Assembly (NCBI RefSeq): GCF_019746665.1
Contig: NZ_JAIERS010000012.1
Coordinates: 1-64,000 of the forward strand
Direction of reading: 5' to 3'
DNA: 64,000 bases
DNA from: Sphingomonas sp.
GTDB lineage: Bacteria; Pseudomonadota; Alphaproteobacteria; Sphingomonadales; Sphingomonadaceae
In this document: positions 6,802 through 50,484 of the stretch, piece by piece
How positions within the stretch are numbered: position 1 is the first letter of the stretch
Layout: each line of letters begins with the position of its first letter
The notes under the pieces: generated by a model
Told to the model about the DNA's origin: nothing
The model's input: the letters and a program-made list of their open reading frames with translations, nothing else
The model's database searches: none
Program-made: the position numbers and the translations under genes

Positions 6802-6886
6802 AAACCACGCCCCCTCGGCGTGCGAATACAAGGGGACGTGCTGAAGCCCGATCCGCTCGGCTAGACAGCGCGGCATTCGCCGAGTC

Positions 6887-6908
6887 GCGCCCCGCCGCCG
6901 CGGGGCGC
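6887..6908. other. GC-rich perfect stem-loop at the 3' end of the dehalogenase gene
   Basis: GCGCCCCGC (6887-6895) and GCGGGGCGC (6900-6908) form a perfect 9-bp stem with a 4-nt loop, beginning 3 bp past the dehalogenase stop codon. There is no T run on either strand, so it is more likely an mRNA 3'-end stabiliser or a factor-dependent terminator than a classical intrinsic terminator. Confidence 0.5.
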
Positions 6909-6911
6909 CGC

Positions 6912-7805
6912 TCAGCTTTCGAGCGAGGCCGCGAAGCTTCGGATGGCGGCCGCGATCTCCGCCGCGCTGTCCTCCTGCAGAAAATGCAGGCCGGGCACGG
7001 TGACTTCGCGCTGATTGGCCCAGCTCCGGCAATAATCGCGCGCGGGGCCGACCAGGATCGAGCCCGGATCGGCGTTGATGAACAGCTTCGGCGTCGGGCT
7101 GGTGCGGTGAAATTCGCCGTAGCGGCGCGCTTTTTCGACGATTTCGCGCGGCTCGCCGTCGAGCGGGATCTGGCGTGGCCAGGCGAGCATCGGCCGGCGA
7201 TCCTCGCCGCCGGCCACGAACGGACGGCGATATTCGTCCATCTCGGCCGCGCTCAGCTCGCGCATCACCGATCCGCGCAACACGCCCTCGATGAACAGGT
7301 TCTTCTCGAAGATCAGCTTTTCCCCCGCCGGCGAGCGGAACCCTTCGAAGATCGCCCGGGCGTTTTCGGGCCAGTGCGTCCAGGTCATCGGCGTGACGAT
7401 CGCCTCCATATAGACGATCCCGCTCACCCGGTCGGCATGATCCATCGCCCATTGCAGGCCGAGCGAGGAACCCCAGTCATGGATGACGAGCAGGATATCG
7501 TCGCCCAGATCGAGTTGATCCCACAGCGCGCTCAGATGGGCATAATGCACGTCCCAGCTGTAGCGGGCGTCGCCTTCGCCGGAGATCTTTTCGGAATCGC
7601 CCATGCCGATCAGGTCGCACGCGACGAGCCGCCCAAGCCCCTCGCAGCCGCGCATGATGTTGCGCCACAGATAGCTGGAAGTCGGGTTGCCGTGCTGGAA
7701 GACGACCGAGCGGCCGCTCCCCTCGTCGATATAGGCCATCTGGCGGCCCAGCACGTCTCGGGTCCGCTTGGCGGCGAAGGGTTGTTCTGACAGGGGGATG
7801 GTCAT
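6912..7805 (-). CDS. dhaA: Haloalkane dehalogenase (LinB/HLD-II-like)
   Basis: 297 aa alpha/beta hydrolase that hydrolyses carbon-halogen bonds in haloalkanes to alcohols. The sequence tracks LinB closely: HGNPTSSYLW (halide-binding Asn40), nucleophile Asp110 with halide-binding Trp111 in HDWGSSLG, Glu134 in YMEAI and catalytic His274 in GLHFLQED. All positions of an HLD-II catalytic pentad are present. ATG 7805 was chosen because GGAG lies 9 nt upstream and the N-terminus aligns with LinB; ATG 7820 is also in frame. It is the last gene of a leftward operon with a crotonase, SDR and acyl-CoA dehydrogenase. No signal peptide, so cytoplasmic. The natural substrate may not be xenobiotic. Confidence 0.92.
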   Translation of the reverse strand: MTIPLSEQPFAAKRTRDVLGRQMAYIDEGSGRSVVFQHGNPTSSYLWRNIMRGCEGLGRLVACDLIGMGDSEKISGEGDARYSWDVHYAHLSALWDQLDLGDDILLVIHDWGSSLGLQWAMDHADRVSGIVYMEAIVTPMTWTHWPENARAIFEGFRSPAGEKLIFEKNLFIEGVLRGSVMRELSAAEMDEYRRPFVAGGEDRRPMLAWPRQIPLDGEPREIVEKARRYGEFHRTSPTPKLFINADPGSILVGPARDYCRSWANQREVTVPGLHFLQEDSAAEIAAAIRSFAASLES

Positions 7806-34804: not shown

Positions 34805-34996
34805 CGTACCGTCGTCATTGTGGCTTGCTAAACCACGCTGGACATGATGTAGTTGATGATCACGTGAGCCAGACAGTAGCCGCGTAAAGCGCTGGCACGT
34901 CCCGTCTACCGATGGAGTGGGACTGTATGGCCTTGGCCCGCATTTTTCCCTGGGTGTCGCGTTATCGTGCCGCGTTGATCGCTCGGAGCGCGCGCC
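34805..34996 (+). promoter_or_regulatory. Region between dnaB and the pcs-mcr-accA operon
   Basis: 192 bp. It should hold the promoter of the 3-hydroxypropionate genes. A short TGTGG/CCACG hairpin (34818-34838) follows dnaB. GGAG lies 8 nt before the pcs ATG. No sigma-factor or operator motif could be assigned with confidence. Confidence 0.4.
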
Positions 34997-37900
34997 ATGT
35001 CGGCTGATCTCGCGCCCGAAACGCTGCACGCAAGCGCCGATAAGGCGCCGGTCGCTCTGACTAATCCTGTGCGCACGCGCGCCGATTGGGAGGCGATGCG
35101 CGCCGCCGTCCTCGCCGATCCGGGCGCGTTCCACGGTGCGATCGCGGCCGAGGCGCTGCATTGGCGCGTGGGCGATGCCTGGCTGCAGCGCGATGCGGAC
35201 GGAACGTGGCGCGGATGGGATGCCGGCACGGGCGCGCCCGTCGCCCCTGATCTTCCCATCGGTTTCGCCCCGTGGACTAACGCATTCGATGCAAGCGACG
35301 CGCCGCACTGGCGCTGGTTCACGGGGGCGCGCACCAATGGTGCGTTCAACGAGGTCGATCGTCATGTGCTTGCCGGGCACGGTGCCGAGACCGCGCTGAT
35401 CTTCGAGGGCGACCGCTGGGACATGGCGGCCGAGGGGGGACGGGGGGCGCCGGTCGATTGCTTCACCGTCTCGCGCAAGCAGTTGCTGCTCGAAAGCGTC
35501 AAGTGCGCGCTGGCGCTCGCTAAGCTCGGGCTGAAGCCCGGCGATCGGCTGGTGCTCAACATGCCGAGCATCATGCCGCAAATCTTCTGGACCGAAGGCG
35601 CCAAGCGGCTCGGCGTCGTCTATACGGCGGTGTTCGGCGGGTTCAGCGACAAGACGCTTTCGGACCGTATCTGCGACGCCGGCGCGAAAGTGATCGTCAC
35701 CTCCGACGGCAGCTATCGCAATGCGCAGGTCGCCGCGTTCAAGAACGCCTATACCGATCCGGCGCTGGATAATTTCGTGCCGGTCGCCACCGCTTTGACG
35801 GTACTCGCCGAGCTTGATCTTGGTTTGGCCGAGGAAGACGCCGAGCGGATCCGCGCGACCGTCGCCGAAACGCTTGCCGGCGAAGTGACGGTCGAGCGAT
35901 CGGACATCATGCGCGGGGTCGGGCGGGCGCTGGCGGCGCTTGGCAAGGACGGGCGGCTGAGCGCGGCCGACGCGGCGCGGCTGCGCATCGCGATCGCCTC
36001 GGCGTTGGTCACGCTGCCGCCCCGGGTTGAAGCGGTGATCGTCGTCCGCCACACCGGCCAGGGCGATGTGATCTGGCGCGAGGAGCGTGACCATTGGGCG
36101 CACGCGCTGACCGCCGAAGCGCTTGGCGACATTCTCGCGGCAGCCCGCGCCGCCGGTTTCGCGGTGGAAAGCCAGGCCGATATGCTGGCGCTCGACGATC
36201 GCGATTTCGTCCGCGCTATCTGGGCGAGTTCCAAGCCGCTGCCGGTCGATGCCGAATTCCCGATGTTCTTCATCTACACCTCGGGCTCGACGGGGAAGCC
36301 CAAGGGCGTGGTGCATGTCCATGGCGGCTATTCCGCCGGCATCGCGCACACGATGCGGGTCGCGTTCGACGCCCGGCCGGGCGATACGATGTATGTCGTG
36401 GCCGATCCGGGTTGGATCACCGGCCAAAGCTATATGATCGCCGCCGCGTTGCTGACGCGGGTGACGAGCCTGGTGTCCGAAGGATCGCCCGTCTTTCCCC
36501 ATGCGGGGCGCTTCGCCGCGATGATCGAGCGGCACCGGGTGAGCATCTTCAAGGCCGGCGTCACGTTTCTAAAGTCGGTGATGGCCGACCCCGCCAATCT
36601 TGCCGATATCGAGCGATACGACCTGTCGAGTTTGCGCGTCGCGACCTTCTGCGCCGAGCCCACCTCGCCGGCTGTTCAGGCGTTCGGGATGGCGCATGTC
36701 GTGCAGCAGTATATCAACAGCTATTGGGCGACCGAGCATGGCGGCATCGCCTGGACCCATTTTTATGGGAACGCCGATTTCCCGCTCGAAGCCAATGCCC
36801 ATGCCTATCCGCTGCCCTGGATCGTTGGCGACGTATGGGTGGAGGATGAGGCGGCCGCCCCTGCAGCGGCGCCTTTCGCGCGGCATGAAGGCGAGGGGAC
36901 GGCTTGGCGGCCGGCTGAGACGGGGGAGAAGGGCGATGTCGTCATCACCGTGCCCTATCCCTATCTCGCCCGCACGATCTGGGGCGACGCCGCCAATTTC
37001 AAGGTAAGCGACGGCGCCGTCGCCGCGGGCTGGCGTGGCGATGCCGAGCGTTGGGCCGGCGGCTATTGGCGGCGCTGGCGCGGCGCCTGGGCCTATACCC
37101 AGGGCGATTTCGCGGTGCGCCATGCGGGCGGATCATTCAGCTTCCACGGCCGCAGTGACGATGTGATCAATGTCTCGGGCCACCGGATGGGCACCGAGGA
37201 GATCGAGGGCGCGATCCTGCGCGACAAGGCGCTCGATCCCGACTCACCTGTCGGCAATGTGCTGGTGGTCGGCGCCCCGCACCGCGAAAAGGGGCTTACC
37301 CCGCTCGCTTTCGTGGTACCGGTCGCGGGGCGCAAGCTGACGCTCGACGACAAGCGCAGGCTGTTCGAGCTGGTCCGCACCGAGAAAGGCGCGGTCGCGG
37401 TGCCTTCGGACATTATCGAGGTGTCGCAATTCCCCGAGACGCGCAGCGGCAAATATATGCGCCGCATGGTGCGTGCGCTGGTCGAAGGCGGCGCGGTGGG
37501 CGACGCGACGACGCTGCGTAATCCCGAGGCGCTCGTCGAGATTAAATCCGCGATCGAGCGCTGGCAACGCCGTCAGCAGCTCGCCGAGAACCAGGCGCTG
37601 TTCGATCGCTACCGCTACTTCCTCGTGCAGTATAATCAGGTCGCGCCGGGCAAGCGGGTGGCGACCGTCACCGTCACCAACCCGCCGGTCAACGCGCTCA
37701 ACGAGCGCGCGATCGACGAGCTGGTGATCGTCGTCGAGCATCTGTCGCGCAAGGACGATGTTGTCGCGGTGGTGTTCACGGGCCAAGGCACCAGTTCGTT
37801 CGTCGCGGGCGCCGACATCCGCCAGATGCTGGAGGAAATCCATAGCCTCGACGAGGCGATGGTGCTGCCCAACAACGCCCAGCTCGCCTTCCGCAAGATC

Positions 37901-40492
37901 GAGACGATGGGCAAGCCATGCATCGCCGCAGTGCAAGGCGTGGCGCTCGGCGGCGGGATGGAGTTCGCGCTGGCCTGCCACTACCGCGTCGCCGAGCCGA
38001 CCGCGCGCTTCGGCCAGCCTGAAATCAGGCTGCGGCTGCTCCCCGGTTATGGCGGCACCCAGCGCCTGCCGCGCCTGCTGCTCGATCGGCGTGGAGCGGA
38101 GGGCTTGCGCGATGCGCTCGATCTGATCCTGGGCGGCCGCAGCATCGATGCAGCAAAGGCGCAGCAAATCGGGTTGATCGATATGTTGGTCGATGGCCGG
38201 CGGGATGCGCTCGCGGAGGCCCATGCGCTGGTTCGGGATTATGTGCGCGAAGGCACGAACAGTGCGCTCGGCAAAGCTTATGCTGCGCGGCAAGCGGCGA
38301 CCCGCGAATGGGAAACGGCTTCTGAAGCATCCCTCGATATGGTGCTGGAGGACGGCTTCTTGCAGCGTATCCTCCGCCAACTCGATTGGGCCGGAAGGGG
38401 GGAAGCAGGCGCGCGCGCGCTCGATGCAGTGCGGACCGGGCTGGCGCATGGCATGGCCGCAGGACTCGCGCGAGAGGCGCGGCTGTTCGCCGAGGCGATC
38501 GTCGATCCGCAGGGCGGCAAGACCGGCATCCGCCAGTTCATCGACAAGGTGAGCCCGCCGCTGCCGGTGCGACGCGACGGGGTGTGGATCGACGCCGAAC
38601 ACGCCCCGCGCGGCGCGGCGCTGCAGGCGGCGGGCGAATTGCTGCCGGTGGGCGCGCCCTTCTACCCTGGCGTCACTCCGATCCCGGCCTGGCAATATGC
38701 CTTTGGCGTCGCGCGCGATCCCGATACCGGCGCGCCGCGCTTCGGCCCGCCCGCCACCCATGAGCATGAACTGATCGTGAAAGTGCCTGAACCGGCGCCC
38801 AACGAAGCCCTGCTCTACATGCTGACGAGCGAGGTGAACTTCAACGACATCTGGGCGCTGACCGGCATCCCCGTCTCGCCGTTCGACGCGCATGAAGAGG
38901 ATGTGCAGATCACCGGATCGGGCGGCATCGCGCTCGTCGCAGCGCTCGGCAGCGAGGCACGCGCCGAGGGGCGGGTGAAGGTCGGCGATTTGGTGACGGT
39001 CTATTCGGGCACCAATGATCTGCTCTCCCCCCAGGTCGGCAATGATCCGATGTTCGCCGATTTCTCGATCCAGGGCTATGAGACCGAAACCGGCAGCCAT
39101 GCGCAGTTCCTGAGCGTGCAGGCGCCGCAGATGCACGCCATCCCGCCCGATCTCACGCTGGAGCAGGCGGGGAGCTATGTGCTGAACCTGGGCACTGTGG
39201 CGCGCTGCCTGTTCACCACCTTGAAGATCGCGCCGGGGCGACGGCTGTTCGTCGAAGGATCGGCGACCGGGACTGGTCTTGATGCACTGCGCAGCGCGGT
39301 GCGGACCGGGTTGCAGGTGACCGGGCTCGTCTCCTCGCCCGAGCGTGCGGAGTTCGTCGCGGGGCAGGGGGCAGTCGGAGCGATCAACCGCAAGGATCCC
39401 GCGCTCGCCGCCTTGTTCACGGTTGTGCCCGAGAACGTAGCCGAAGCGCGGGTGTGGGAGGCAGCGGGCGCGCCGCTCATCGCCGCCTATCGCGCGCTCA
39501 ACGACGGGGCGCTCGCCGATTATGTCGTGAGCCATGCGGGCGAAACCGCCTTCCCGCGCAGCTTCCAGCTGCTCGCCGAAGGAGGGACGCTTGCCTTCTA
39601 TGGCGCTTCGTCGGGCTATCACTTCAGCTTCATGGGCAAGCCGGGGGCTGCGAGCCCGGAGGAGATGCTGCGCCATGCAAGCTTGCGCGGCGGCGAGGCG
39701 GTGCTGCTCTATTACGGCCCCGGCTCGACCGAGCTACTCGACCAAATGGGGCTGGAGATTATCGAGGCCGCGCGCCGCTTCAACGCGCGCAGTGTGGTCG
39801 CCACCACCACCGATGGCCAGCGGGAGTTCCTGCAATCGCTAGGGCTGGAGGAGGCGATCGAGGGCATCGTCAGCCTCGAGACGATCCGGCGGACCGAGGG
39901 CGGCAATTTCCTGTGGCCCGATACCATGCCACGCCTGCCCGACGCCAAGGCCGATATCGATCGCTTCAAGGCGGCGGTCCGCGATTATCAGGATCGGGTG
40001 ATGAAGCCGTTCGGCGGCGCGGTCGGTCGCATCCTGCGCTCGGCCGACAATCCGCGTGGCGCGCCCGATCTTATCTTCGAGCGCGCGGGGCAGGATACGC
40101 TTGGCGTCTCGACCTCGCTGGTTAAACCCTTCACCGGCCGCGTCGTCTTCGCCGAAGATCTGCAAGGGCGCCGCTTCACCTTCTACGCCCCCCAGGTGTG
40201 GACGCGTCAACGCAAGATCCTGATGCCGACCGCGTCGATCCTCGGCACCCATCTGTGCAACGCCTATGAAGTCGCGCGCATGAACGACATGATCGCCGCC
40301 GGCCTGCTCGAGGTAACCGAGCCGAGCGTCGTCGCCTGGAACGAGTTGCCGCAAGCTCATCAGGCGATGTGGGACAATGTCCATGCCGGCGCGACTTATG
40401 TTGTCAACCACGCGCTCCCCGCGCTTGGCCTGCGCAGCCGTGACGAGCTGCTCGAAATGTGGGCGGCGCAGGAAAGCACCCCGCCCGATTGA
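34997..40492 (+). CDS. pcs: Trifunctional propionyl-CoA synthase (3-hydroxypropionate pathway)
   Basis: 1831 aa, close to the roughly 1820 aa of known Pcs. Three fused enzymes turn 3-hydroxypropionate into propionyl-CoA. (1) Acyl-CoA synthetase, ~100-840: P-loop YTSGSTGKPKG (427-437), WATEHGG, YTQGDF, catalytic Lys819 in SGKYMRR. (2) Enoyl-CoA hydratase, ~870-1190, dehydrating 3-hydroxypropionyl-CoA: ALGGGMEFAL with Glu989 and FGQPEI with Glu1009, 20 residues apart as in active crotonases. (3) Enoyl-CoA reductase of the crotonyl-CoA reductase/MDR type, ~1250-1831: NFNDIWALTG, nucleotide loop EGSATGTG near 1421. Known Pcs encloses its chamber so that acrylyl-CoA does not escape. mcr follows after 42 bp. 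No fragmentation or missing domain. Confidence 0.96.
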   Translation: MSADLAPETLHASADKAPVALTNPVRTRADWEAMRAAVLADPGAFHGAIAAEALHWRVGDAWLQRDADGTWRGWDAGTGAPVAPDLPIGFAPWTNAFDASDAPHWRWFTGARTNGAFNEVDRHVLAGHGAETALIFEGDRWDMAAEGGRGAPVDCFTVSRKQLLLESVKCALALAKLGLKPGDRLVLNMPSIMPQIFWTEGAKRLGVVYTAVFGGFSDKTLSDRICDAGAKVIVTSDGSYRNAQVAAFKNAYTDPALDNFVPVATALTVLAELDLGLAEEDAERIRATVAETLAGEVTVERSDIMRGVGRALAALGKDGRLSAADAARLRIAIASALVTLPPRVEAVIVVRHTGQGDVIWREERDHWAHALTAEALGDILAAARAAGFAVESQADMLALDDRDFVRAIWASSKPLPVDAEFPMFFIYTSGSTGKPKGVVHVHGGYSAGIAHTMRVAFDARPGDTMYVVADPGWITGQSYMIAAALLTRVTSLVSEGSPVFPHAGRFAAMIERHRVSIFKAGVTFLKSVMADPANLADIERYDLSSLRVATFCAEPTSPAVQAFGMAHVVQQYINSYWATEHGGIAWTHFYGNADFPLEANAHAYPLPWIVGDVWVEDEAAAPAAAPFARHEGEGTAWRPAETGEKGDVVITVPYPYLARTIWGDAANFKVSDGAVAAGWRGDAERWAGGYWRRWRGAWAYTQGDFAVRHAGGSFSFHGRSDDVINVSGHRMGTEEIEGAILRDKALDPDSPVGNVLVVGAPHREKGLTPLAFVVPVAGRKLTLDDKRRLFELVRTEKGAVAVPSDIIEVSQFPETRSGKYMRRMVRALVEGGAVGDATTLRNPEALVEIKSAIERWQRRQQLAENQALFDRYRYFLVQYNQVAPGKRVATVTVTNPPVNALNERAIDELVIVVEHLSRKDDVVAVVFTGQGTSSFVAGADIRQMLEEIHSLDEAMVLPNNAQLAFRKIETMGKPCIAAVQGVALGGGMEFALACHYRVAEPTARFGQPEIRLRLLPGYGGTQRLPRLLLDRRGAEGLRDALDLILGGRSIDAAKAQQIGLIDMLVDGRRDALAEAHALVRDYVREGTNSALGKAYAARQAATREWETASEASLDMVLEDGFLQRILRQLDWAGRGEAGARALDAVRTGLAHGMAAGLAREARLFAEAIVDPQGGKTGIRQFIDKVSPPLPVRRDGVWIDAEHAPRGAALQAAGELLPVGAPFYPGVTPIPAWQYAFGVARDPDTGAPRFGPPATHEHELIVKVPEPAPNEALLYMLTSEVNFNDIWALTGIPVSPFDAHEEDVQITGSGGIALVAALGSEARAEGRVKVGDLVTVYSGTNDLLSPQVGNDPMFADFSIQGYETETGSHAQFLSVQAPQMHAIPPDLTLEQAGSYVLNLGTVARCLFTTLKIAPGRRLFVEGSATGTGLDALRSAVRTGLQVTGLVSSPERAEFVAGQGAVGAINRKDPALAALFTVVPENVAEARVWEAAGAPLIAAYRALNDGALADYVVSHAGETAFPRSFQLLAEGGTLAFYGASSGYHFSFMGKPGAASPEEMLRHASLRGGEAVLLYYGPGSTELLDQMGLEIIEAARRFNARSVVATTTDGQREFLQSLGLEEAIEGIVSLETIRRTEGGNFLWPDTMPRLPDAKADIDRFKAAVRDYQDRVMKPFGGAVGRILRSADNPRGAPDLIFERAGQDTLGVSTSLVKPFTGRVVFAEDLQGRRFTFYAPQVWTRQRKILMPTASILGTHLCNAYEVARMNDMIAAGLLEVTEPSVVAWNELPQAHQAMWDNVHAGATYVVNHALPALGLRSRDELLEMWAAQESTPPD

Positions 40493-40534
40493 GCGCAGCC
40501 GCGCCCCCTGACACCCCCAAGCCCGGAGACCAGC

Positions 40535-43500
40535 ATGGCCAAAAGCACGATCGCCGAGCGCGCGGCGAAGCCCAAGACCAAGGCGGCGCCGATGGACGCG
40601 GCGCTCTCTCCCGCCGGTCGGCTTGCGGGCAAAATCGCGGTCGTCACGGGCGCGGCGGGCAATATCGGCGGCTATATCGTTCGCCGCTATCTCGCCGAAG
40701 GCGCCACAGTGGTGATGACCGGGCGTACGCCCAGCCGTACCGATGCCGCCGCGCAGGCAATCCGTGTCGAACTGGGGATCGCATCGGACCAGCTGGCGAC
40801 GGTGACTCTCGACGGCGCCGATCCGGCCTCGGTCCGCGCGGCGATCGCCGAGGTGGTCGAGCGGTTCGGGCGGATCGACATTCTGGTGAACAATGCCGGC
40901 TCGGCCGGGCCGAAGCAGCCGCTCGAAGCGCTGCCGCTCGACGCCGCCGAACTCGCCGCGCTCCAGAAATCTGGCTCAACCGACGCTGAGACCGTGGGCG
41001 ACGCGATGCGCAGCCTGCTCGGCGTCGCGTGGCATGTCGCGCGCGAGGCGGCGCCGGCGATGATCGAGGGTGGGTCGATCATCAACGTCTCGACCATCTT
41101 TTCGCGCACGCCCTATTATGCGCGCACCGCCTATGTCGTGCCCAAGGCGGCGCTCAATGCCTGGTCGCGCGAATTGTCGCTGGAGCTGGGGCCGCGCGGG
41201 GTGCGGGTGAACCTCGTTTATCCCGGCCCGATCGAAAGCGAGCGCATCCGCAGCGTGTTCGCGACGATGGACAAGATGCGCGGCGACGAGCCGGGCACCA
41301 CCGCCACCCAATTCTTTGACATGATGTCGCTGGAGCGCGCGACCGGCGGGAATGCGCGCGCGAAAACCTTCCCGACGCCAGACGATATCGCCGCGACCTG
41401 CGTGTTTCTCGGCAGCGACGAGTCCGCCGCCTATAACGGCCATGATTTCGAGGTGACGCACGGTATGACCGTGCGCAAGGAGCAGCGCTCGACCTATCTC
41501 TCGCGCCCGACGATGCGCTCGATGGACGGCACCGGCCTCGCGGTGCTGATGGTCGCCGGCGATGGTTGGGAAGACGCGCTGGAGATCGCTCGCGTCCAGA
41601 TTGGCTGCGGCGCCCAGGTGTTGCTCGGGCTCGCGCGCCAAGCCGATGTCGCGATCGCCCAGGCGCGCGCCAAGGCCGAAGGGATTGGTGACAAGCTGAC
41701 GATCGTCCGCTTCAACCGTACCGAGCCAGCGGCGATGGAAAAGGCACTGGAGGATTACACCGCCGAACAGATGCCGATCACCGCCGCGCTGTTCCTGCCG
41801 GCGCTCGCGCCCGAGGAAGTGCAGGGCAGTCTGGTGGGCGCGGAACGCGAGATGGTCGACCGTTTCCTCGACATCGAGCTGACCGGCGCGATCGCGCTCG
41901 CCCGCACGATGAGCCGCTATTGGAAGCGCCACGACCGGCTGCTCCAGCCACCGCGCTTCGCCTTCGTCTCGAACGCGAGCGACGGGCGCGGCGATGTCTA
42001 CGCGAACATGCTGCGCGCCGGTGTCGAGCAGCTGATCCGGGTGTGGCGCGACGAGTCCGAGATCGACGTCGCGCATGGCCGGCGCCGTCAGGCCGAATGG
42101 GGGAACCAGATCGTCCGCTTCACCAACGGCGAGGCCGAAAATATCCGCTTCACCGCCGGCCACGCCGCCCGCATCCTGCTGAAGGAAAGCAAGATCCGCG
42201 ATGTGACGCTCTATCTGCCAAGCAGCATCGGCGAGGCGACCGGCGCGCGCAACGCGATGCCGGGGTTCAGCGAGAATATCACCGGGCTGCATCTTGGCAA
42301 GGTGGCGCTCATCACCGGCGGTTCGGCGGGGATTGGCGGCCAGGTCGCGCGGCTGTTGGCGCTCGCGGGCGGCAAGGTGATGATGGTCGCCCGGCGCGAA
42401 AGCGAACTGGCGGTCGCGCGCGCCCGGATCGTGAGCGAACTGGAGGATATCGGCTTCGCGGGCGTCGAGCGGCGGGTGCAGACGATGGCGAATGTCGACG
42501 TCAGCGACTTCACTTCGCTGCGAAAAGCGGTCCAGGCGACGATCAAGGCGTTCGGGCGGATCGATTATCTAATCAACAATGCCGGCGTCGCGGGTGCCGA
42601 GGAAATGGTCGTCGATATGAGCGTCGACGCCTGGAACTATACCCTCGACGCCAACCTCATCAGCAATTTCCTGCTGATCCACGATGTCGTGCCGCTGATG
42701 AAGGCGCAGGGATCGGGCTATATCCTCAACGTCTCGTCCTATTTCGGGGGCGAGAAATATCTGGCGGTGGCATATCCCAACCGTGCCGATTACGCGGTCT
42801 CGAAATCGGGGCAGCGCGCGATGGTCGAGTCGATGGCGCGTTATCTCGGGCCGGAAATCCAGTTCAACGCGATCGCGCCGGGTCCGGTCGATGGCGATCG
42901 GCTCGCGGGAACCGGCGGTAAGCCCGGACTGTTCGAGCGGCGGGGCAAGCTCATTCTCGAAAACAAGCGGCTGAACGCGGTCCATGCGGCCGTCGTCAAG
43001 GCGCTGCGCCGCGGGATAAGGGTGGAGGCGGTCCTCTCCCGCCTGTCGCGCAACGATACGGTGCGGATGTCGCACGATCCCAACAACCCCCGCGAACTGC
43101 GCGATCTGGCGCTTGCATGCGCCCGCGAGGGCGACGGGGTCTGCAGCTGGGATCGCTATCTGCTGACCCCCGCCATCGCCGCGCGGCTGGTGTCGCGACT
43201 CCGGCAAGCCGGCTATCTGCTCGACGCGCCCGGCTGGTCCGATCGCCCCGATACCAAGGAGGCCAACAGCGATTGGCTGCTCCGCACCCCGCCCGATGAC
43301 GCGCCCTTCCTGCCCGCCGAGCGCATCGCGATCGAGGCGAAGAAGGTCGGCGGCGGCGTGCTCTCGCAGCTTTATCTCGGCAAGATGCCGACGGAAACCG
43401 ACGTGGCCCAGGCGACCGTGTTCTTCCTGGCCGACCGGGCGGTGTCGGGCGAGACCTTCATGCCCTCGGGCGGGCTGTCAGTCGAACGCTCGACCACCGA

Positions 43501-44260
43501 GCGCGAGCTGTTCGGTGGGCCGAAGCAGGAGCGGCTCGATCAGATGCGCGGCCGCACCGTGTGGGTGATCGGCGAGCATCTCACCGATTACCTGGCCGAG
43601 GTGGCGCGCGCCTTCGTCAGCGATTGCCATGTCGCGCGTGTGGTCCTGATGGCGGCGAGCCCCGGCGGCTTGTCGGCGATCGAGGCCCAGCTTGACGATC
43701 TTCCCGAAGGGGCGGTCGAAACGATGGTCTACGGCGATGCGATCGAGGTCGCGATGGATTCGGCCCTGGTGCAATGGGGAAGGCCGACCACGATCCTCTC
43801 CACCCCCGCCGAACCGCTGCCGCAGCAGTTATTCGCGCTCGACGCGCCGCTGACGCCCGAGGCGTTCCGTGGGGTGGTCGCCGCCAACCTGACGCAGCAA
43901 TTCCGGGTCGCGCGGAAGGCATCGCTCTATGACGGCTGCCAACTGGTGCTCACTTCCCCCGATGTGCCGATGGGCGATACCAGCCCGGCCTTCGCGCTCG
44001 CCAATTTCATCAAGACGACGCTCCACGCCTTCACCGCGACGCTGGCGGTTGAGAATGAGCGGCTGGTGCACGACGTGCCCGTCAACCAGATCAACCTAAC
44101 CCGCCGCGTCCGTTCCGAAGAGCCACGCGATCTCGACGAGCATCTGGAGGAAGTGAAGCGCTTCGCCCGTGCGGTGTTGCTGCTCGGCGCGCCGCTTCCC
44201 GATGCCGAGGACTCGCGCTACCGTGCGCGCATCTATCGCGGGATGTCGATGACGGTGTGA
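40535..44260 (+). CDS. mcr: Bifunctional malonyl-CoA reductase (NADPH)
   Basis: 1241 aa, two SDR-type halves as in Chloroflexus Mcr (about 1220 aa). The N-terminal half (~30-575) reduces malonate semialdehyde to 3-hydroxypropionate: cofactor loop TGAAGNIGG near 38-46, STIFSR, and YVVPK with Tyr200/Lys204. The C-terminal half (~575-1241) reduces malonyl-CoA to the semialdehyde: LHLGKVALITGGSAGIGG near 595, NVSSYFGGEK, and YAVSK with Tyr753/Lys757. The C-terminal segments NQIDLTRR-like and ALANFIKTTLHAFTAT are strongly conserved with known Mcr. GGAG lies 6 nt before the ATG; the stop overlaps accA (GTGA). Product feeds Pcs encoded upstream. Cytoplasmic. Confidence 0.96.
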   Translation: MAKSTIAERAAKPKTKAAPMDAALSPAGRLAGKIAVVTGAAGNIGGYIVRRYLAEGATVVMTGRTPSRTDAAAQAIRVELGIASDQLATVTLDGADPASVRAAIAEVVERFGRIDILVNNAGSAGPKQPLEALPLDAAELAALQKSGSTDAETVGDAMRSLLGVAWHVAREAAPAMIEGGSIINVSTIFSRTPYYARTAYVVPKAALNAWSRELSLELGPRGVRVNLVYPGPIESERIRSVFATMDKMRGDEPGTTATQFFDMMSLERATGGNARAKTFPTPDDIAATCVFLGSDESAAYNGHDFEVTHGMTVRKEQRSTYLSRPTMRSMDGTGLAVLMVAGDGWEDALEIARVQIGCGAQVLLGLARQADVAIAQARAKAEGIGDKLTIVRFNRTEPAAMEKALEDYTAEQMPITAALFLPALAPEEVQGSLVGAEREMVDRFLDIELTGAIALARTMSRYWKRHDRLLQPPRFAFVSNASDGRGDVYANMLRAGVEQLIRVWRDESEIDVAHGRRRQAEWGNQIVRFTNGEAENIRFTAGHAARILLKESKIRDVTLYLPSSIGEATGARNAMPGFSENITGLHLGKVALITGGSAGIGGQVARLLALAGGKVMMVARRESELAVARARIVSELEDIGFAGVERRVQTMANVDVSDFTSLRKAVQATIKAFGRIDYLINNAGVAGAEEMVVDMSVDAWNYTLDANLISNFLLIHDVVPLMKAQGSGYILNVSSYFGGEKYLAVAYPNRADYAVSKSGQRAMVESMARYLGPEIQFNAIAPGPVDGDRLAGTGGKPGLFERRGKLILENKRLNAVHAAVVKALRRGIRVEAVLSRLSRNDTVRMSHDPNNPRELRDLALACAREGDGVCSWDRYLLTPAIAARLVSRLRQAGYLLDAPGWSDRPDTKEANSDWLLRTPPDDAPFLPAERIAIEAKKVGGGVLSQLYLGKMPTETDVAQATVFFLADRAVSGETFMPSGGLSVERSTTERELFGGPKQERLDQMRGRTVWVIGEHLTDYLAEVARAFVSDCHVARVVLMAASPGGLSAIEAQLDDLPEGAVETMVYGDAIEVAMDSALVQWGRPTTILSTPAEPLPQQLFALDAPLTPEAFRGVVAANLTQQFRVARKASLYDGCQLVLTSPDVPMGDTSPAFALANFIKTTLHAFTATLAVENERLVHDVPVNQINLTRRVRSEEPRDLDEHLEEVKRFARAVLLLGAPLPDAEDSRYRARIYRGMSMTV

Positions 44261-45189
44261 GCGACTATCTGCCCTTCGAAAAGGCGATCGAGGCGCTTGA
44301 GCGGCGGGCGGCCGAACTGCGTGCCGAAGGGGCGCCCGAGGTCGAGGGGCGCCAGCTAGAGGAACGCGCCGAGCGGCTGCTCGATTACACTTATGCCCAG
44401 CTCACGCCGTGGCAGCGCACGCTGGTCGCGCGCCATCCCAAGCGACCGCAAATCCACGATTTCATCGCCGGACTGTTCGATGACTTCATGCCGCTGGGCG
44501 GCGACCGTGCCTTCGCCGACGATCCGGCGCTGATCGGTGGGCTCGCGCGGTTCCAGGGGCGGCCGGTGATGGTGATCGGCAACGCCAAGGGCCGCGATAC
44601 CGCCGCGCGGCTCAAGCACAACTTCGGCATGGCGCGGCCCGAGGGCTATCGCAAGGCGATCCGCCTGCTCGATCTTGCCGACCGGTTTGGCCTGCCGGTG
44701 ATCACCTTGGTCGATACCCCGGGCGCCTTTCCGGGGATCGACGCCGAGGCGCGTGGCCAGGCCGAGGCGATCGCGCGCGCGACCGAGCGTTGCCTGGGCG
44801 TGGCGAGCCCGCTGATCGCGGTGATTACGGGCGAAGGCGGATCGGGCGGCGCGGTCGCGCTCGCGGCCGGGGACCGAGTGCTGATGTTCGAGCACGCGGT
44901 CTATTCGGTGATCAGCCCCGAAGGCTGCGCCTCGATCCTGTGGCGTTCAGCCGAACGCGCGCCAGATGCCGCCGAGGCGATGCGGATCACCGCCGCCGAT
45001 CTGCTGCGGCTGAAAGTGATCGACCGGATCGTTTACGAGCCCGTGGGCGGCGCGCACCGCCAGCCGGGGGTGGCGATCAAACGGCTGGGCATCGCGCTGG
45101 GCGAGGAGTTGCAGGCGTTGCGCGCGCTCACTCTGGAGGCGCGCCGGGTCGAGCGGCGGCAGCGTTTCCTGGCGATGGGACGGCTATAG
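44257..45189 (+). CDS. accA: Acetyl-CoA carboxylase carboxyltransferase subunit alpha
   Basis: 310 aa. AccA, with AccD, moves CO2 from biotin to acetyl-CoA, giving malonyl-CoA. Segments GGDRAFADDPALIGG, HNFGMARPEGYRKAIRL, TLVDTPGAFPGIDAE, GEGGSGGAVALAAGDRVLMFE, YSVISPEGCASILWR are all present. The GTG start overlaps the mcr stop, so carboxylase and reductase are made together. That coupling suggests a copy dedicated to 3-hydroxypropionate formation; whether the genome also has a housekeeping accA cannot be seen here. accB, accC and accD are not in the window. Confidence 0.94.
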   Translation: MSDYLPFEKAIEALERRAAELRAEGAPEVEGRQLEERAERLLDYTYAQLTPWQRTLVARHPKRPQIHDFIAGLFDDFMPLGGDRAFADDPALIGGLARFQGRPVMVIGNAKGRDTAARLKHNFGMARPEGYRKAIRLLDLADRFGLPVITLVDTPGAFPGIDAEARGQAEAIARATERCLGVASPLIAVITGEGGSGGAVALAAGDRVLMFEHAVYSVISPEGCASILWRSAERAPDAAEAMRITAADLLRLKVIDRIVYEPVGGAHRQPGVAIKRLGIALGEELQALRALTLEARRVERRQRFLAMGRL

Positions 45190-45272: not shown

Positions 45273-45713
45273 TCAAGCAGCGCAGCCATGCCGCAGCTGC
45301 CATACCGGCACCCGCGCATCAGCCGCGCTCTGATAGACATGCTCGTAGCGCGTCAGACTAGCCGCGAGCGTCGCGGCATCGACCGGGCTTTCCGGCGCGA
45401 AACTGTCGAACCCGCAGCGGCGCATGAAGGCGATCTGATCGACCAGCACGTCCCCCGCCGCGCGCAGCTCGCCGGCATAGCCTGCCTCGCGCAGGATGCG
45501 CGCCGCCGAATAGCCGCGCCCGTCACGAAAGCTGGGGAAGCTCACCTCGATCAGCGCGAGGCGATCGAGCGCCGGAATCAGCGCCCGGGCATCGTCGCCA
45601 GCCTCGATCCGCACCGCGGTCGCGTTGTTCTGGCCGGCGAGAAAGGCATCGAGCGTGATCGCCGGCTCTTCTTGCGGCTCGTCGTCGCGCAAGCGCAGTA
45701 GCGTATCAGCCAT
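45273..45713 (-). CDS. DUF934 protein of the sulfite reductase cluster
   Basis: 146 aa. The central LALIEVSFPSFRDGRGYSAARILRE and GYAGELRAAGDVLVDQIAFMRRCGFDSF segments are the DUF934 signature. The family is found beside cysI/cysH in alphaproteobacteria and is thought to assist sulfite or phosphoadenylylsulfate reduction. It overlaps the cysI end by 8 bp. It is the last gene of the cluster here; the expected cysH does not follow. Confidence 0.9.
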   Translation of the reverse strand: MADTLLRLRDDEPQEEPAITLDAFLAGQNNATAVRIEAGDDARALIPALDRLALIEVSFPSFRDGRGYSAARILREAGYAGELRAAGDVLVDQIAFMRRCGFDSFAPESPVDAATLAASLTRYEHVYQSAADARVPVWQLRHGCAA

Positions 45714-47337
45714 AGATCGCCTCCTTGAACGGCTCGAACCCCAGCCGGCGATAGGTGTCGATGAAGCGCTCGCCGTCCTCACGCGCTTGGACGTACAGGT
45801 CGGTGACGCGCTCGACCGCGTCGACAATGCCGTCCTCGTCGAAGCCTGGCCCGGTGATCCGCCCAAGCGACACATCCTCCGCGCCCGATCCCCCGAGGAG
45901 AAGCTGGTAATTCTCGGTACCTTTGCGGTCGACGCCCAGGATGCCAATGTGCCCGGCGTGATGATGGCCGCAGGCGTTGATACAGCCGCTGATCTTCAGC
46001 TTCAGCTCGCCGAGCGTGCGCTGGCGATCAAGGTCGGCGAAACGCTGCGCGATCTTCTGCGCGACCGGGATCGAGCGGGCGTTCGCGAGGCTGCAATAAT
46101 CGAGCCCCGGGCAGGCGATGATGTCGCTGATCAGGTCGAGATTGGCGGTCGCGAGCCCCGCTGCGGCGAGTGCCGCGAACAAGGCCGGCAGGTCGGCCTT
46201 GCGGACATGCGGCAGGACGAGATTCTGCGCATGAGTCACCCGCACCTCGTCGAAGGAATAACGCTCGGCGAGGTCGGCGACGACGCGCATCTGCTCGGCC
46301 GAGGCATCGCCGGGGATGCCCCCCACGGGCTTCAGGCTGATGGTCGCGATCGCATAGCCGGGTGCCTGATGCGCGCTGACATTCTGGCGCGCCCAGTCGG
46401 CGAAATCGGGGTCGTTTAGGTCAATCGCGTCGCTCAAGCCGGTTTCGAACGCGGGCGGGGCGAAGAAAGCGCTGATCCGCTCGAGCTCGGCGAGCGGCGG
46501 ATCGATGCCCTCGTGGCGCAGCCGGGCAAATTCCGCCTCCACCTGGCGGCGATATTCCTCCGCGCCGAGTTCGTGGATCAGGATCTTGATCCGCGCCTTG
46601 TAGATATTGTCCCGCCGGCCGTAGCGGTTGTAGACACGCAGGCACGCTTCCAGATAGCTCAGCAACTCGGTCGCGGGAACGAAGTCCTTGATCTCCACCG
46701 CGATCATCGGCGTGCGCCCCATCCCGCCGCCGACGAAGACGCGGGCGCCCAGTTCGCCATCGCGGCGCACCAGCTGGATGCCGATATCGTGCAGCCGCAT
46801 CGCGGCGCGATCCTCGTCGCTCGCGATCACCGCGATCTTGAACTTGCGCGGCAAATAGCTGAATTCGGGGTGGAAGCTGCTCCATTGGCGCAGCAATTCG
46901 GCCCAGGGGCGCGGATCGGCGACCTCATCGGCGGCGGCGCCCGCGAACTGGTCCGAGCTGATGTTGCGGATGCAATTGCCGCTCGTCTGGATGGCGTGCA
47001 TCTCGACGCTGGCGAGATCGGCGAGAATGTCGGGCGCTTCGCTCAGCTTGATCCAGTTATACTGGATGTTCTGGCGCGTGGTGAAATGGCCATAGCCGCG
47101 ATCATAGCGCTCGGCGATGTCGGCGAGCATCCGCATCTGCTTGCCCGAAAGCGTGCCATAGGGGATCGCGACGCGCAGCATATAGGCGTGGAGTTGCAGG
47201 TACAGGCCGTTCATCAGCCGAAGCGGCTTGAACTGGTCTTCCGACAGCGCGCCCGCCAAGCGGCGTTTCACCTGATCGCGAAACTCCTCGACCCGCGCGT
47301 CGACGATCGCCTGATCATATTGGTCATATTGGTACAT
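45706..47337 (-). CDS. cysI: Sulfite/nitrite reductase hemoprotein (CysI-like)
   Basis: 543 aa. Two ferredoxin-like half-domains plus the siroheme/[4Fe-4S] site with Cys409, Cys415 (CPGLDYC), Cys452 and Cys456 (GCINACGHHH). N-terminal GHFTTRQNIQYNW and TSGNCIRNISSD are siroheme-binding segments. Reduces sulfite to sulfide with six electrons for cysteine synthesis. Neighbours cobA (siroheme precursor) and DUF934 support sulfite over nitrite. cysJ is absent nearby, so electrons probably come from ferredoxin or another donor. Confidence 0.93.
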   Translation of the reverse strand: MYQYDQYDQAIVDARVEEFRDQVKRRLAGALSEDQFKPLRLMNGLYLQLHAYMLRVAIPYGTLSGKQMRMLADIAERYDRGYGHFTTRQNIQYNWIKLSEAPDILADLASVEMHAIQTSGNCIRNISSDQFAGAAADEVADPRPWAELLRQWSSFHPEFSYLPRKFKIAVIASDEDRAAMRLHDIGIQLVRRDGELGARVFVGGGMGRTPMIAVEIKDFVPATELLSYLEACLRVYNRYGRRDNIYKARIKILIHELGAEEYRRQVEAEFARLRHEGIDPPLAELERISAFFAPPAFETGLSDAIDLNDPDFADWARQNVSAHQAPGYAIATISLKPVGGIPGDASAEQMRVVADLAERYSFDEVRVTHAQNLVLPHVRKADLPALFAALAAAGLATANLDLISDIIACPGLDYCSLANARSIPVAQKIAQRFADLDRQRTLGELKLKISGCINACGHHHAGHIGILGVDRKGTENYQLLLGGSGAEDVSLGRITGPGFDEDGIVDAVERVTDLYVQAREDGERFIDTYRRLGFEPFKEAIYG

Positions 47338-47352
47338 GAGTCGGGCCTTCGT

Positions 47353-47829
47353 TCAATTGAGGCGGGCGGCGGGCGCCCCATCGCTCTGGTCGGCGACGAC
47401 CAGCGGATAATGGCGGACGATAACCCCCAGTTGGGCGAAGCCAAGCCCGTCGATCTTCTCTTCGCGGTGCGCGGCGCGGATCGCGCGGAATGCCTCGGCG
47501 ACGCCGGGCGCGTCATGCCCCTCGGGCGTCGGATAGCCGACCATCACGATCACATCCCAGTCGGCTTCATCGCCCTCCGCGCGCTCGAGCAGCGAATAGC
47601 TGGTGAACAGCCCACGCGCGATGCCGATGCGGTCCATCGCGAACCAGTTACGCTTGATATACTCGATCAACGCGGCGCGCTTGCCGGGCTGCGCGCGCAG
47701 ATAGGTTTGCGTGATGTGGCGCGTCGCCGGTTGCGTGGCGGCCGTCGGGGTGGCGAGTTCGGCCTCGGCCGCGGTCGCAGCTTGGGCCGCGAGCACGAGC
47801 GCGGCGAGTGGCAGGAGCGGGCCGTTCAT
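47353..47829 (-). CDS. Exported small protein, dimeric alpha/beta-barrel-like
   Basis: 158 aa. A signal peptide (MNGPLLPLAALVLAAQAATA) is followed by a domain of about 110 residues, ITQTYLRAQPGKRAALIEYIKRNWFAMDRIGIARGLF ... DWDVIVMVGYP, whose strand-helix-strand order recalls the dimeric alpha/beta-barrel (NIPSNAP/ABM) fold. Its start overlaps the DUF2849 stop (ATGA) and it ends 15 bp before cysI, so it is embedded in the sulfur operon. Its function there is unknown. Confidence 0.72.
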   Translation of the reverse strand: MNGPLLPLAALVLAAQAATAAEAELATPTAATQPATRHITQTYLRAQPGKRAALIEYIKRNWFAMDRIGIARGLFTSYSLLERAEGDEADWDVIVMVGYPTPEGHDAPGVAEAFRAIRAAHREEKIDGLGFAQLGVIVRHYPLVVADQSDGAPAARLN

Positions 47830-48125
47830 ATCACCCAAGCGCCCGCATCGGTATCGGCGGGCTTCAGCGTCAGGTCCGGCCGCACGGTCGGCCCCAGCGC
47901 GCGCACCCGGTCCTTGATGTGCGCGGGGCGGATATGGCCGTCGGCCTCGCGGGTCGCGTCGATCAGATAAGGCACGTTCACACGGCGGGCGCCTTCTTCG
48001 CGCTTGGCGATCGCGTCGCCGGTATCGCCGACATCGACCGCGTCCTGAACCAGCCGCGACCAGCCGTCGCCCGCCCACCAGATCACGTCGCCACTCGCTA
48101 AATCCTGCCCCGTCAACAGCTTCAT
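47826..48125 (-). CDS. DUF2849 protein
   Basis: 99 aa. GQDLASGDVIWWAGDGWSRLVQDA and VNVPYLIDA ... GHIRPAHIKDRVRALGPTVRPDL match DUF2849, a small cytoplasmic family nearly always next to siroheme synthase and sulfite reductase genes in alphaproteobacteria. Exact role unknown. ATGA overlaps on both sides. Confidence 0.9.
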   Translation of the reverse strand: MKLLTGQDLASGDVIWWAGDGWSRLVQDAVDVGDTGDAIAKREEGARRVNVPYLIDATREADGHIRPAHIKDRVRALGPTVRPDLTLKPADTDAGAWVI

Positions 48126-48910
48126 GCCGCCCCCTCCGCCACCCGCGCCCAGTGCGCCAGCGCATCGGCGGCGTCGGACAGTTCGACCACTTCGCCAACC
48201 ACGATCACCGCCGGGCTGCCGATCGCCATCCGCGTCACCATCGCCCCCAGATCGGCGAGCAGGGTCTTCATCGCCCGGGCGCCCGGCAGCGTACCGCGTT
48301 CGAGCACCGCGACCGGCATATCGGGCGCGACCCCATCGGCGATCAGCTTGTCGGCGATCTGCGCCGCGCTCGCGACGCCCATATAGATGACGAGCGTGCG
48401 CCCCTGCCCAGCAAGGCCCGCCCAATTCTGCTCGTTCAACCCCTGGCACTGGCCCGCCACGAAGCTCACTGCGCTCGCATAGCCGCGGTGGGTGAGGGGC
48501 AGCATCGCTTCCGCCGCGCAGCCGAGCGCCGCCGAAACGCCGGGGATCACCTCGACCGGGAGGCCAGCGGCGCGCACCGCTTCGACCTCCTCGCCGCCGC
48601 GCCCGAAGATGAAAGGGTCGCCGCCCTTCAGCCGCACGACGATGTCGCCCGCGCGAACATGCGCGACGATCAGCGCGTTGATCGATTCCTGCGGCAAGGT
48701 GTGCCGCGCGCGCCGCTTGGCGACCGAGATGCGATGCGCGCTAGCGGGTGCGAGATCGAGCACGCGCTGATCGACCAGCCCATCATGCACCAGCACATCG
48801 GCGCTCGCGAGCGCCCGCACCGCGCGCAGCGTCAGCAGATCGGGGTCGCCAGGGCCGGCGCCAACGAGAATCGCGCGCCCGCGCGCGGCCGGATCGAGCA
48901 GAGTCGCCAT
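48122..48910 (-). CDS. cobA: Uroporphyrinogen-III C-methyltransferase
   Basis: 262 aa. LVGAGPGDPDLLTLRAVRAL, LVHDGLVDQRVLDLAP, VRLKGGDPFIFGRGGEE, VIPGVSAALGCAAEAMLPLTHRG are the SAM-binding and substrate segments of SUMT (CobA/CysG-A). It makes precorrin-2, the precursor of siroheme for CysI. The CysG-B oxidase/chelatase domain is missing here and must be supplied elsewhere. ATG 48910 is the family start; first gene of the coupled cluster. Confidence 0.94.
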   Translation of the reverse strand: MATLLDPAARGRAILVGAGPGDPDLLTLRAVRALASADVLVHDGLVDQRVLDLAPASAHRISVAKRRARHTLPQESINALIVAHVRAGDIVVRLKGGDPFIFGRGGEEVEAVRAAGLPVEVIPGVSAALGCAAEAMLPLTHRGYASAVSFVAGQCQGLNEQNWAGLAGQGRTLVIYMGVASAAQIADKLIADGVAPDMPVAVLERGTLPGARAMKTLLADLGAMVTRMAIGSPAVIVVGEVVELSDAADALAHWARVAEGAA

Positions 48911-49014
48911 GGCCGGGGGGATGCGCCCGGGGACGTGGCGAGGCAATCCAAGCTTGGGTTGGCGGCGGCGAAGCGAAACTTTCGTGCGAGCTTTACGATA
49001 GGAAGCCCCGAAGC
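48911..49014 (-). promoter_or_regulatory. Promoter region of the siroheme-sulfite cluster with a palindrome
   Basis: 104 bp upstream of cobA. CCAAGCTTGG at 48948-48957 is a perfect 10-bp palindrome, extended to an imperfect 16-bp symmetry, 38 bp before the start codon. It could be an operator for a sulfur regulator; no specific factor can be named. Confidence 0.35.
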
Positions 49015-50427
49015 TCACCCGTCGCGCAGGCCGATCCCGATCAGCGCGCGCGCCTGTTCCGCCTCGGACGAGACCACTGGGTAGGCGCAGTAATCCGCCG
49101 CGTAATAGGCGCTTGGCCGGTGATTGCCCGACCAGCCAACCCCACCGAACGGCGCGTTCGACGCCGCGCCATTGGTCGGCTTGTTCCAGTTGACGATCCC
49201 GGCGCGGGCATTGGCCCAGAACTGGTCGTACAGCGCCGGGTCTTGGCTGATGAGCGAGGCGGATAGGCCGTAGCGGGTATTGTTTGCCTCGACGATCGCG
49301 TCCTCGAACGCGTTCACCCGGGTGATCTGGAGCACCGGGCCGAACAGCTCGACATCGGGGCGATCATTCATCTCGCTCACGTCGATCAGCCCGGGGGTGA
49401 GGAAGGGGAGGTTGTCGTCTGGCCGCAGCATGTGGCGCAGCGGCCGCCCGCCGCGCGACATGAGCTCGAGAAAGCTTTCCTGCAGCAGGTCGGCCGCCTC
49501 GTTGTCGATCACCGGGCCCATGAAGGGCTGCGGATTATCGAGCGGCGCGCCGATAATCATCCGGTCGAGCAGCTTGGTCAGTTCGCCCAGCAAGGGCTGG
49601 TGGAGACGTTCGTCGACGATCAGCCGCCGCGCGGCGGTGCAGCGCTGGCCGGCGGTGGTGAAGGCAGATTGCACGATCAGCACCGCCGCCGAGGCAAGAT
49701 CGGGCGCGTCCCAAACCACGATCGGGTTGTTGCCGCCCATCTCCAGCGCCAGGATCTTCTCGGGCTTGTCGGCGAAGGCGCGGTTGAGCGCGATGCCGGT
49801 GCGCGCCGAGCCGGTGAACAGCAGCCCGTCGATATCGGGATGCGCAGCGAGCGCCTTGCCCTCGGCCGGCCCGCCGATCAGCACACGCAGCACGCCTTCG
49901 GGCACGCCCGCCTCGTGAAAGCATTTGACGAGGAAGGCGCCAACTGCCGGGGTCTTCTCCGACGGCTTGAACACCACCGCGTTGCCGGCGAGCAAGGCAG
50001 GGACGATATGGCCGTTGGGCAGATGGGCGGGGAAATTGTATGGCCCCAGCACCGCGAGCACGCCATGCGGCTTGTGGCGCAGCGCGACGCGGCCCGCCTG
50101 GCTGTCCATCCGCCGTTGCGGGGTGCGTTCGGCATAGGCGGTGGCAGAGATATTGACCTTCGCCATAACCGCGTCGACTTCGGTCTTGGCCTCCCACAGC
50201 GGCTTGCCCGCCTCACGCGCGATAAGTTCGGCGAAGGCATCGTAATGGCTGCGCACGACATTAGCGAAGCGGCGCAGCGCCTCGAGCCGGTAAGCGAGGG
50301 GTTGCGCGGCCCAGCCGGCCCAGCTTGCCCGAGCACGACCTATTTCCTCATCGACATTGCCCGGCAGCCCGCGCCACACCAGCGCCCCCGTCGCCGGTTC
50401 GGTCGATACGATTTCCTGTCCCAGCAT
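49015..50427 (-). CDS. astD: N-succinylglutamate 5-semialdehyde dehydrogenase
   Basis: 470 aa aldehyde dehydrogenase. VLGPYNFPAHLPNGHIVPALLAGNAVVFKPSEKTP, LFTGSARTG, LEMGGNNP (general base Glu) and TTAGQRCTAARR (nucleophile Cys) are AstD-type. It catalyses the fourth step of the succinyltransferase route of arginine breakdown. ATG 50427 has GAGAGG upstream. selO lies 57 bp upstream on the same strand. astB, the second step, is found at the right edge, 13 kb away; astA, astC and astE are not in the window. Confidence 0.93.
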   Translation of the reverse strand: MLGQEIVSTEPATGALVWRGLPGNVDEEIGRARASWAGWAAQPLAYRLEALRRFANVVRSHYDAFAELIAREAGKPLWEAKTEVDAVMAKVNISATAYAERTPQRRMDSQAGRVALRHKPHGVLAVLGPYNFPAHLPNGHIVPALLAGNAVVFKPSEKTPAVGAFLVKCFHEAGVPEGVLRVLIGGPAEGKALAAHPDIDGLLFTGSARTGIALNRAFADKPEKILALEMGGNNPIVVWDAPDLASAAVLIVQSAFTTAGQRCTAARRLIVDERLHQPLLGELTKLLDRMIIGAPLDNPQPFMGPVIDNEAADLLQESFLELMSRGGRPLRHMLRPDDNLPFLTPGLIDVSEMNDRPDVELFGPVLQITRVNAFEDAIVEANNTRYGLSASLISQDPALYDQFWANARAGIVNWNKPTNGAASNAPFGGVGWSGNHRPSAYYAADYCAYPVVSSEAEQARALIGIGLRDG

Positions 50428-50484
50428 CCCCGTCCTCTCAGGCAACGCGCTTTGCCCCAGCGCAGGGGGGCTTGCCAAGAGCGC

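Follow-up and report, generated by a model that had tools for sequence, protein, structure and literature searches.

What use does a Sphingomonas make of an operon for converting acetyl-CoA to propionyl-CoA? The question is raised by the first 64,000 nucleotides of contig C29 (C29:1-64000, hereafter the window) of a Sphingomonas sp. genome (3.10 Mb, 30 contigs, 94.9% complete), which encode, on one strand, a propionyl-CoA synthase (Pcs), a malonyl-CoA reductase (Mcr) and a paralog of the alpha subunit of the acetyl-CoA carboxylase carboxyltransferase (AccA). The answer that we favor, and consider probable as a whole, is that pcs-mcr-accA serves an aerobic anoxygenic phototroph as a biosynthetic operon for anaplerotic CO2 fixation. 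The locus has the following layout:

34805..34996, plus strand: intergenic region between dnaB and pcs, the presumed promoter region; no recognized motif
34997..40492, plus strand: pcs, trifunctional propionyl-CoA synthase, 1831 aa (open reading frame, domain matches, structure alignment)
40535..44260, plus strand: mcr, bifunctional malonyl-CoA reductase, 1241 aa (open reading frame, structure alignments, active-site residues)
44257..45189, plus strand: accA paralog, acetyl-CoA carboxylase carboxyltransferase alpha, 310 aa, with a GTG start overlapping the mcr stop (equivalog cut-offs)

The open reading frames and translations reproduce the coordinates, lengths and strand reported in the first-pass annotation of this DNA, as well as the 42-bp spacing of pcs and mcr and the GTGA in which the mcr stop TGA overlaps the GTG start of accA. 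The identities of the three enzymes, which that annotation also proposed, are upheld by domains, structure alignments and equivalog models, and the direction from acetyl-CoA to propionyl-CoA is supported as well; accA was rightly counted as a member of the operon but is not directly fused into it, since it only overlaps mcr. From the gene spacing, we infer that the three genes are co-transcribed.

The full-length matches of Pcs, Mcr and AccA are far beyond chance. In a profile search, Pcs shows AMP-ligase, crotonase and zinc-type alcohol dehydrogenase (ADH) domains, in this order, and its residues 28-1827 align with the solved chain 6eqo_A (2874 bits), the corresponding enzyme of Erythrobacter NAP1. 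K819 of the AMP-ligase and E989 and E1009 of the crotonase part, to which we presume catalytic roles belong, are unchanged across seven aligned Pcs sequences. Residues 25-1241 of Mcr align with 8hi4_A, and its two halves with 6k8v and 6k8s. Residues important in the Roseiflexus MCR are known from a structural study (PMC10470521, in its accessible part); after transfer by a constant offset, by which Arg1164 could not be placed, all 13 placed active-site residues (SDR1 and SDR3) are present in Mcr, and they are identical in all 35 Mcr sequences aligned, that of the window included. AccA scores above the curated cut-offs of PF03255, TIGR00513 and NF004344 (427 bits for the last, whose cut-off is 357). 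Mcr and Pcs are predicted to be active enzymes.

In the mechanism that we propose, the operon AccA, together with the single detected AccD of the genome and shared biotin carboxylase parts, would convert acetyl-CoA and bicarbonate to malonyl-CoA, which Mcr would reduce to 3-hydroxypropionate with 2 NADPH. Pcs would then activate, dehydrate and reduce 3-hydroxypropionate to propionyl-CoA, and propionyl-CoA carboxylase (PCC), an epimerase and methylmalonyl-CoA mutase (mcm), all encoded elsewhere, would incorporate a second bicarbonate and yield succinyl-CoA. The cost is three NADPH and several ATP per acetyl-CoA. Because the route is costly in both, it would most likely pay when cyclic photophosphorylation supplies ATP, thus sparing organic carbon. 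Light-powered CO2 co-assimilation would be the likeliest use, and it has already been proposed in print: in Porphyrobacter ULC335, as far as the accessible part of the report goes, the 3-hydroxypropionate bicycle genes rise by day and CO2 co-assimilation is put forward (PMC10674011). By analogy, this daytime rise would be the best outside support for such a use in the window's organism.

The host was previously described as heterotroph-like, with no photosynthesis gene visible. Neither description can be retained, as the check for pufLM and bch genes located them beyond the window end, on the same contig as the operon; they had been missed because they begin outside the window. The pufL and pufM genes lie at C29:85754-87416 (two PF00124 matches, 356 and 320 bits), and bchC, bchX, bchY, pufL and pufC exceed NCBIfam equivalog cut-offs beside the reaction-centre genes, with a bchZ match spanning 171-467 of 468 positions in a gene clipped by the edge of the stretch fetched. 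The bchCXYZ and pufLMC genes thus stand ~16-25 kb beyond the window end and 35-43 kb beyond the operon. By gene content, the host would be an aerobic anoxygenic phototroph, predicted to produce bacteriochlorophyll and to use light.

The link to phototrophy extends across the order. In a survey of 396 genomes, with mcr called at E <= 1e-100 and reaction-centre genes by PF00124, mcr was found in 35 genomes, every one of which belongs to the 80 with PF00124; Fisher's test, with no correction for relatedness, gives p 3e-28. At the genus level, all eight genera with mcr fall among the 23 of 84 that hold PF00124 (p 1e-5). In each of the 35 genomes, pcs is located directly 5' of mcr and a methylmalonyl-CoA mutase match is present.

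Beyond the order, 399 related stretches were found when public genomes were searched with a Pcs alignment. The analysis covered the best 80, which come from sphingomonads, other alpha-, beta- and gammaproteobacteria, Gemmatimonadota, Chloroflexota and one Aneurinibacillus. Together with the 35 mcr-positive genomes of the order, these 399 stretches make the earlier wording, that the enzymes occur in "a few aerobic phototrophs", too narrow. An mcr match lies just 3' of pcs in 71 of the best 80 loci; among the other nine, seven contigs end within ~1.1 kb of pcs or inside it, and the remaining two are from Chloroflexus (L194) and Aneurinibacillus (L185). PF00124 was found in 46 of the 50 Pcs-positive public genomes queried. 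We regard the association of pcs with phototrophy beyond the order as a lead rather than a rule, because the completeness of the queried genomes is not given and 319 of the 399 matches are outside the sample. Anoxygenic photosynthesis and the 3-hydroxypropionate cycle have also been associated in print, with Sandarakinorhabdus and Novosphingobium metagenome-assembled genomes (MAGs) named as potential mixotrophs in the accessible part of that report (PMC10239486).

The Aneurinibacillus locus is an observation in its own right. On the 10.9-kb contig of Aneurinibacillus danicus (L185; GC 0.50), a full-length Pcs match spans 2252-7615 and shares 64% identity with the Chloroflexus enzyme. Neither an Mcr match in the 3.3 kb that follow pcs nor a PF00124 match in the genome was found. 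This Pcs could reflect a non-phototrophic use in 3-hydroxypropionate assimilation, or contamination.

In a rival reading, the module of the window's organism would mainly assimilate external 3-hydroxypropionate or acrylate via Pcs to propionyl-CoA, with light being incidental. By established chemistry, Pcs alone suffices for this, and the Aneurinibacillus gene, with neither Mcr nor a reaction centre detected, would fit. However, Mcr and the operon AccA make 3-hydroxypropionate from acetyl-CoA, which would be pointless for a scavenger; pcs and mcr are found together in 35 of 35 genomes, and the restriction to pufLM-positive genomes in the order would be left unexplained. The presence of accA in the operon also speaks against simple scavenging, which we consider quite unlikely.

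The window's genome encodes two AccA proteins, the operon copy and a housekeeping one, and one detected AccD (TIGR00515 over cut-off), with which the operon AccA presumably pairs. Among the 35 mcr-positive genomes, accA directly follows mcr in 22 and lies ~2 kb further on in G105; in the other 12, no accA match was found in the stretch fetched near mcr. Two full-length AccA, one of them mcr-linked, are present in 20 of the 35 genomes, the mcr-linked AccA is the only full-length copy in three (G155, G238 and G105; directly adjacent to mcr in the first two), and a single AccA is encoded away from mcr in 12. The mcr-linked accA of G297 is split, which may be a sequencing error because mcm of the same genome is split too. 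None of the 45 pufLM-positive genomes without mcr has a second full-length AccA, so that, among the 80, the extra copy is found only beside mcr.

In a tree of 49 AccA sequences (21 mcr-linked, 17 of these from the survey and four from named loci; 23 housekeeping; five unlinked single copies), 20 mcr-linked AccA, including those of G155 and G238, form a clade with support 96/90, which drops to 58/54 when G105 is included. The operon AccA of the window belongs to this clade, and the five unlinked single copies group weakly with the housekeeping side. AccA is needed for fatty acid synthesis. Given that the mcr-linked protein is the sole AccA of G155 and G238, the operon AccA is probably a working carboxyltransferase subunit. 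In the corresponding loci of these two genomes (L096 and L095, respectively), accA after mcr is the sole full-length AccA found in the genome and would seem to have taken the place of the housekeeping gene. Furthermore, linked accA is present in 39 of the best 80 named loci, all from sphingomonads or other alphaproteobacteria, with Mcr 69-84% identical to that of the window; Aerophototrophica, one of the sources, is presumably an alphaproteobacterium. Among cultured relatives, Erythrobacter dokdonensis (L171) and Novosphingobium fuchskuhlense (L121) have all three genes.

The continuation of the route beyond propionyl-CoA is encoded in one cluster, at C25:34.8-43.9 kb, which contains genes for a carboxyltransferase, methylmalonyl-CoA epimerase, enoyl-CoA hydratase, methylmalonyl-CoA mutase, biotin synthase and a biotin carboxylase with a PCC-type BT domain. 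The check for propionyl-CoA carboxylase, epimerase and mutase suggested in the first-pass annotation is thereby answered in the affirmative, for the epimerase (TIGR03081) and the mutase (NF006944) by matches over equivalog cut-offs and for the carboxylase by domains. The carboxyltransferase has a 653-bit Carboxyl_trans match, the biotin carboxylase carries a PCC_BT domain, and neither subunit passes a PCC-specific NCBIfam model; we read them as putative PccB and PccA. With this cluster present, acetyl-CoA can, by gene content, reach succinyl-CoA through the uptake of two bicarbonates. Between mcm and the gene for a biotin-dependent carboxylase subunit lies the biotin synthase gene (L042:14593-15639, that is, G000:C25:40593-41639), which exceeds the TIGR00433 cut-off.

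Since both signature enzymes are present, the full autotrophic 3-hydroxypropionate bicycle has to be considered. Its mesaconyl-CoA hydratase (PF19315) was not found at full length in this 94.9% complete genome: only two partial matches were obtained, at 16-180 and 18-172 of 353 positions, so that the check for mesaconyl-CoA enzymes gave ~160 of 353 positions of the hydratase, the other second-cycle enzymes not having been searched for. Moreover, a relative with the same key enzymes is stated, in the accessible part of the report, to have no full carbon fixation pathway (PMC10674011). The bicycle is therefore very improbable. Crotonyl-CoA carboxylase/reductase (Ccr) was not detected over the curated cut-off in the genome, the best match being Pcs itself (147 of 378.55 bits), and isocitrate lyase (PF00463) is present (176 and 150 bits, two pieces of one frame). 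Since neither Ccr over its cut-off nor a full-length mesaconyl-CoA hydratase was detected, whereas isocitrate lyase was, we read the system, as far as tested, as a putative linear CO2-fixing anaplerotic branch. In view of the isocitrate lyase, this route would supplement the usual acetate route, not replace it. Replacement of the glyoxylate shunt was accordingly rejected for this genome, given the strong isocitrate lyase match. PF00463 matches are found in 78 of the 80 pufLM-positive genomes, including all 35 with mcr; in most other genomes, the best match is ~67-82 bits over 81-240 of 526 positions, in frames mostly of 535-615 aa, and we take these weaker matches as candidates for another isocitrate lyase type.

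Regulation was approached by searching ten typed promoter and operator patterns upstream of pcs in the 35 genomes, with five coding controls. Photosynthesis-type control by PpsR is not supported, as TGTN12ACA occurs upstream of pcs in one of 35 genomes (1.3 expected). Strict FnrL sites were found in none of the 35, and the loose Fnr, RpoH, RegA-like and LysR-like patterns in 3 (controls 0-2), 2 (0-2), 2 (0-3) and 7 (0-5), respectively. The EcfG pattern is found in 17 of 35 genomes (controls 0, 0, 0, 1, 0), whereas for the strict form the chance expectation lies between ~0.1 (from shuffles) and 0.16 (from the remainder of the loci) of 35. In a dyad count across 20 upstream regions, it ranked first as well (7/20), but this alone proves little because 7/20 was also attained by the top dyad of one shuffled set. 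All 17 genomes belong to a single Erythrobacter-group genus, g2 (Erythrobacter and Porphyrobacter strains, among them NAP1 and E. dokdonensis): GGAAC-N16/17-CGTT is present in 17 of its 18 genomes, which are kin, and in none of the 17 others. Counted from the position that aligns with the start of pcs in the window, the site is 128-163 nt upstream (L079-L088, L090-L094, L105, L107), and the spacer is 16 in all 17 genomes, with varying sequence. This motif fits the EcfG motif of Sphingomonas melonis, GGAAC-N17-20-GTT, as given in the accessible part of PMC6599016, and suggests general-stress (EcfG) control of the operon in the Erythrobacter group. A motif sampler found, in 13 of the 16 g2 genomes supplied to it, a second element, roughly GTAATTTTGCTGCATNACCGCC, which stands 51-86 nt ahead of pcs, on the pcs side of the EcfG-type site, and is a possible operator. 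Both elements bear on the relatives only, because the window shares neither.

The stress or stationary-phase setting suggested by the EcfG-type promoters of the Erythrobacter group would suit a valve whose main benefit is to burn off NADPH and ATP under light or during stationary phase; carbon gain would be secondary, and the product might reach a storage polymer. The known stoichiometry of three NADPH per propionyl-CoA and the presence of PhaC in the genome agree with such a valve. Nevertheless, no EcfG-type site was found in the window, and the presence of the downstream route to succinyl-CoA favors carbon gain, so that we consider overflow unlikely and retain the anaplerotic CO2-fixing branch as the better explanation.

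Several observations weigh against tying the operon to light and to anaplerosis in this manner. No mcr match is found in 45 of the 80 pufLM-positive genomes, that is, the module is optional for phototrophs. Four of the 50 Pcs-positive public genomes have no PF00124 match, namely, the MAGs L117, L120 and L178 and the isolate Aneurinibacillus danicus. With isocitrate lyase present, growth on acetate does not obviously require the route. Finally, the 192-bp region upstream of the window's pcs contains no PpsR-type TGTN12ACA, strict FnrL, EcfG-type GGAAC-N16/17-CGTT or sigma-70-type site.

The closest known systems are the partial bicycles of Erythrobacter sp. NAP1 and Porphyrobacter ULC335, in which pcs is likewise followed by mcr in pufLM-positive alphaproteobacteria; Pcs and Mcr of the window are 69-81% and 60-80% identical, respectively, to those of the 18 g2 genomes. 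However, no accA match adjoins mcr in NAP1 (L148), and the NAP1 counterpart among the survey genomes (G284) has the EcfG-type promoter that the window lacks. The Chloroflexus bicycle involves the same reactions, with Pcs 60% identical in the best segment (L194), but there is no mcr or accA match within 8 kb of pcs in L194, whereas the window has one operon; furthermore, Chloroflexus has the bicycle and the window's genome, as far as tested, only the linear branch. The ethylmalonyl-CoA pathway of Dinoroseobacter and other phototrophs is also a CO2-fixing route from acetyl-CoA through propionyl-CoA, but differs in its use of Ccr, which, as noted above, is not over the cut-off here.

Opinions still differ on whether aerobic anoxygenic phototrophs fix meaningful amounts of CO2 other than by the Calvin cycle. 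That mcr is confined to pufLM-positive genomes (35 of the 35 found among 396 of the order) ties the module to light use and names strains to test. The module itself is known from light-using relatives; the accA paralog and the EcfG-type promoter before pcs in relatives are possibly new, as no earlier account of the operon-linked paralog or of the EcfG link was found in a search of openly licensed literature below the level of full texts. Both are handles on carboxylase partitioning and stress control that are testable in cultured Erythrobacter. More tentatively, and with considerable doubt, we propose that acetyl-CoA carboxylase is split by use in phototrophic Sphingomonadaceae: a dedicated AccA, overlapped by mcr, might form a separately regulated carboxylase pool supplying CO2 fixation instead of fatty acid synthesis. 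The operon of the Erythrobacter group, under the general stress sigma factor EcfG, might then belong to a program of starvation and light survival rather than to a growth pathway.

A mobile cassette joined to the photosynthesis cluster is not supported. The mcr and puf genes are within ~130 kb in five of the 35 genomes (G000, G203, G281, G065, G207), 0.9-1.8 Mb apart on one contig in nine, and on different contigs in 21. The genes next to the operon in the window (dCTP deaminase, UPF0262, DnaB, sulfite reductase, tetrapyrrole methylase) were found beside it in none of 34 relatives, within the 8 kb or less fetched either side of mcr; weak aldehyde dehydrogenase matches (30-31%) occur near the operon in two relatives.

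Among the named loci, that of Sphingomonas psychrolutea (L119) has pcs and accA in place and a best Mcr piece covering residues 452-1241 only; the N-terminal half may be in another frame. Just 3' of the operon in the window, on the minus strand (45706-50478), are genes for a sulfite/nitrite reductase, a tetrapyrrole methylase and an aldehyde dehydrogenase, the first two of which point to an assimilatory pathway for sulfate or nitrite that includes sirohaem synthesis.

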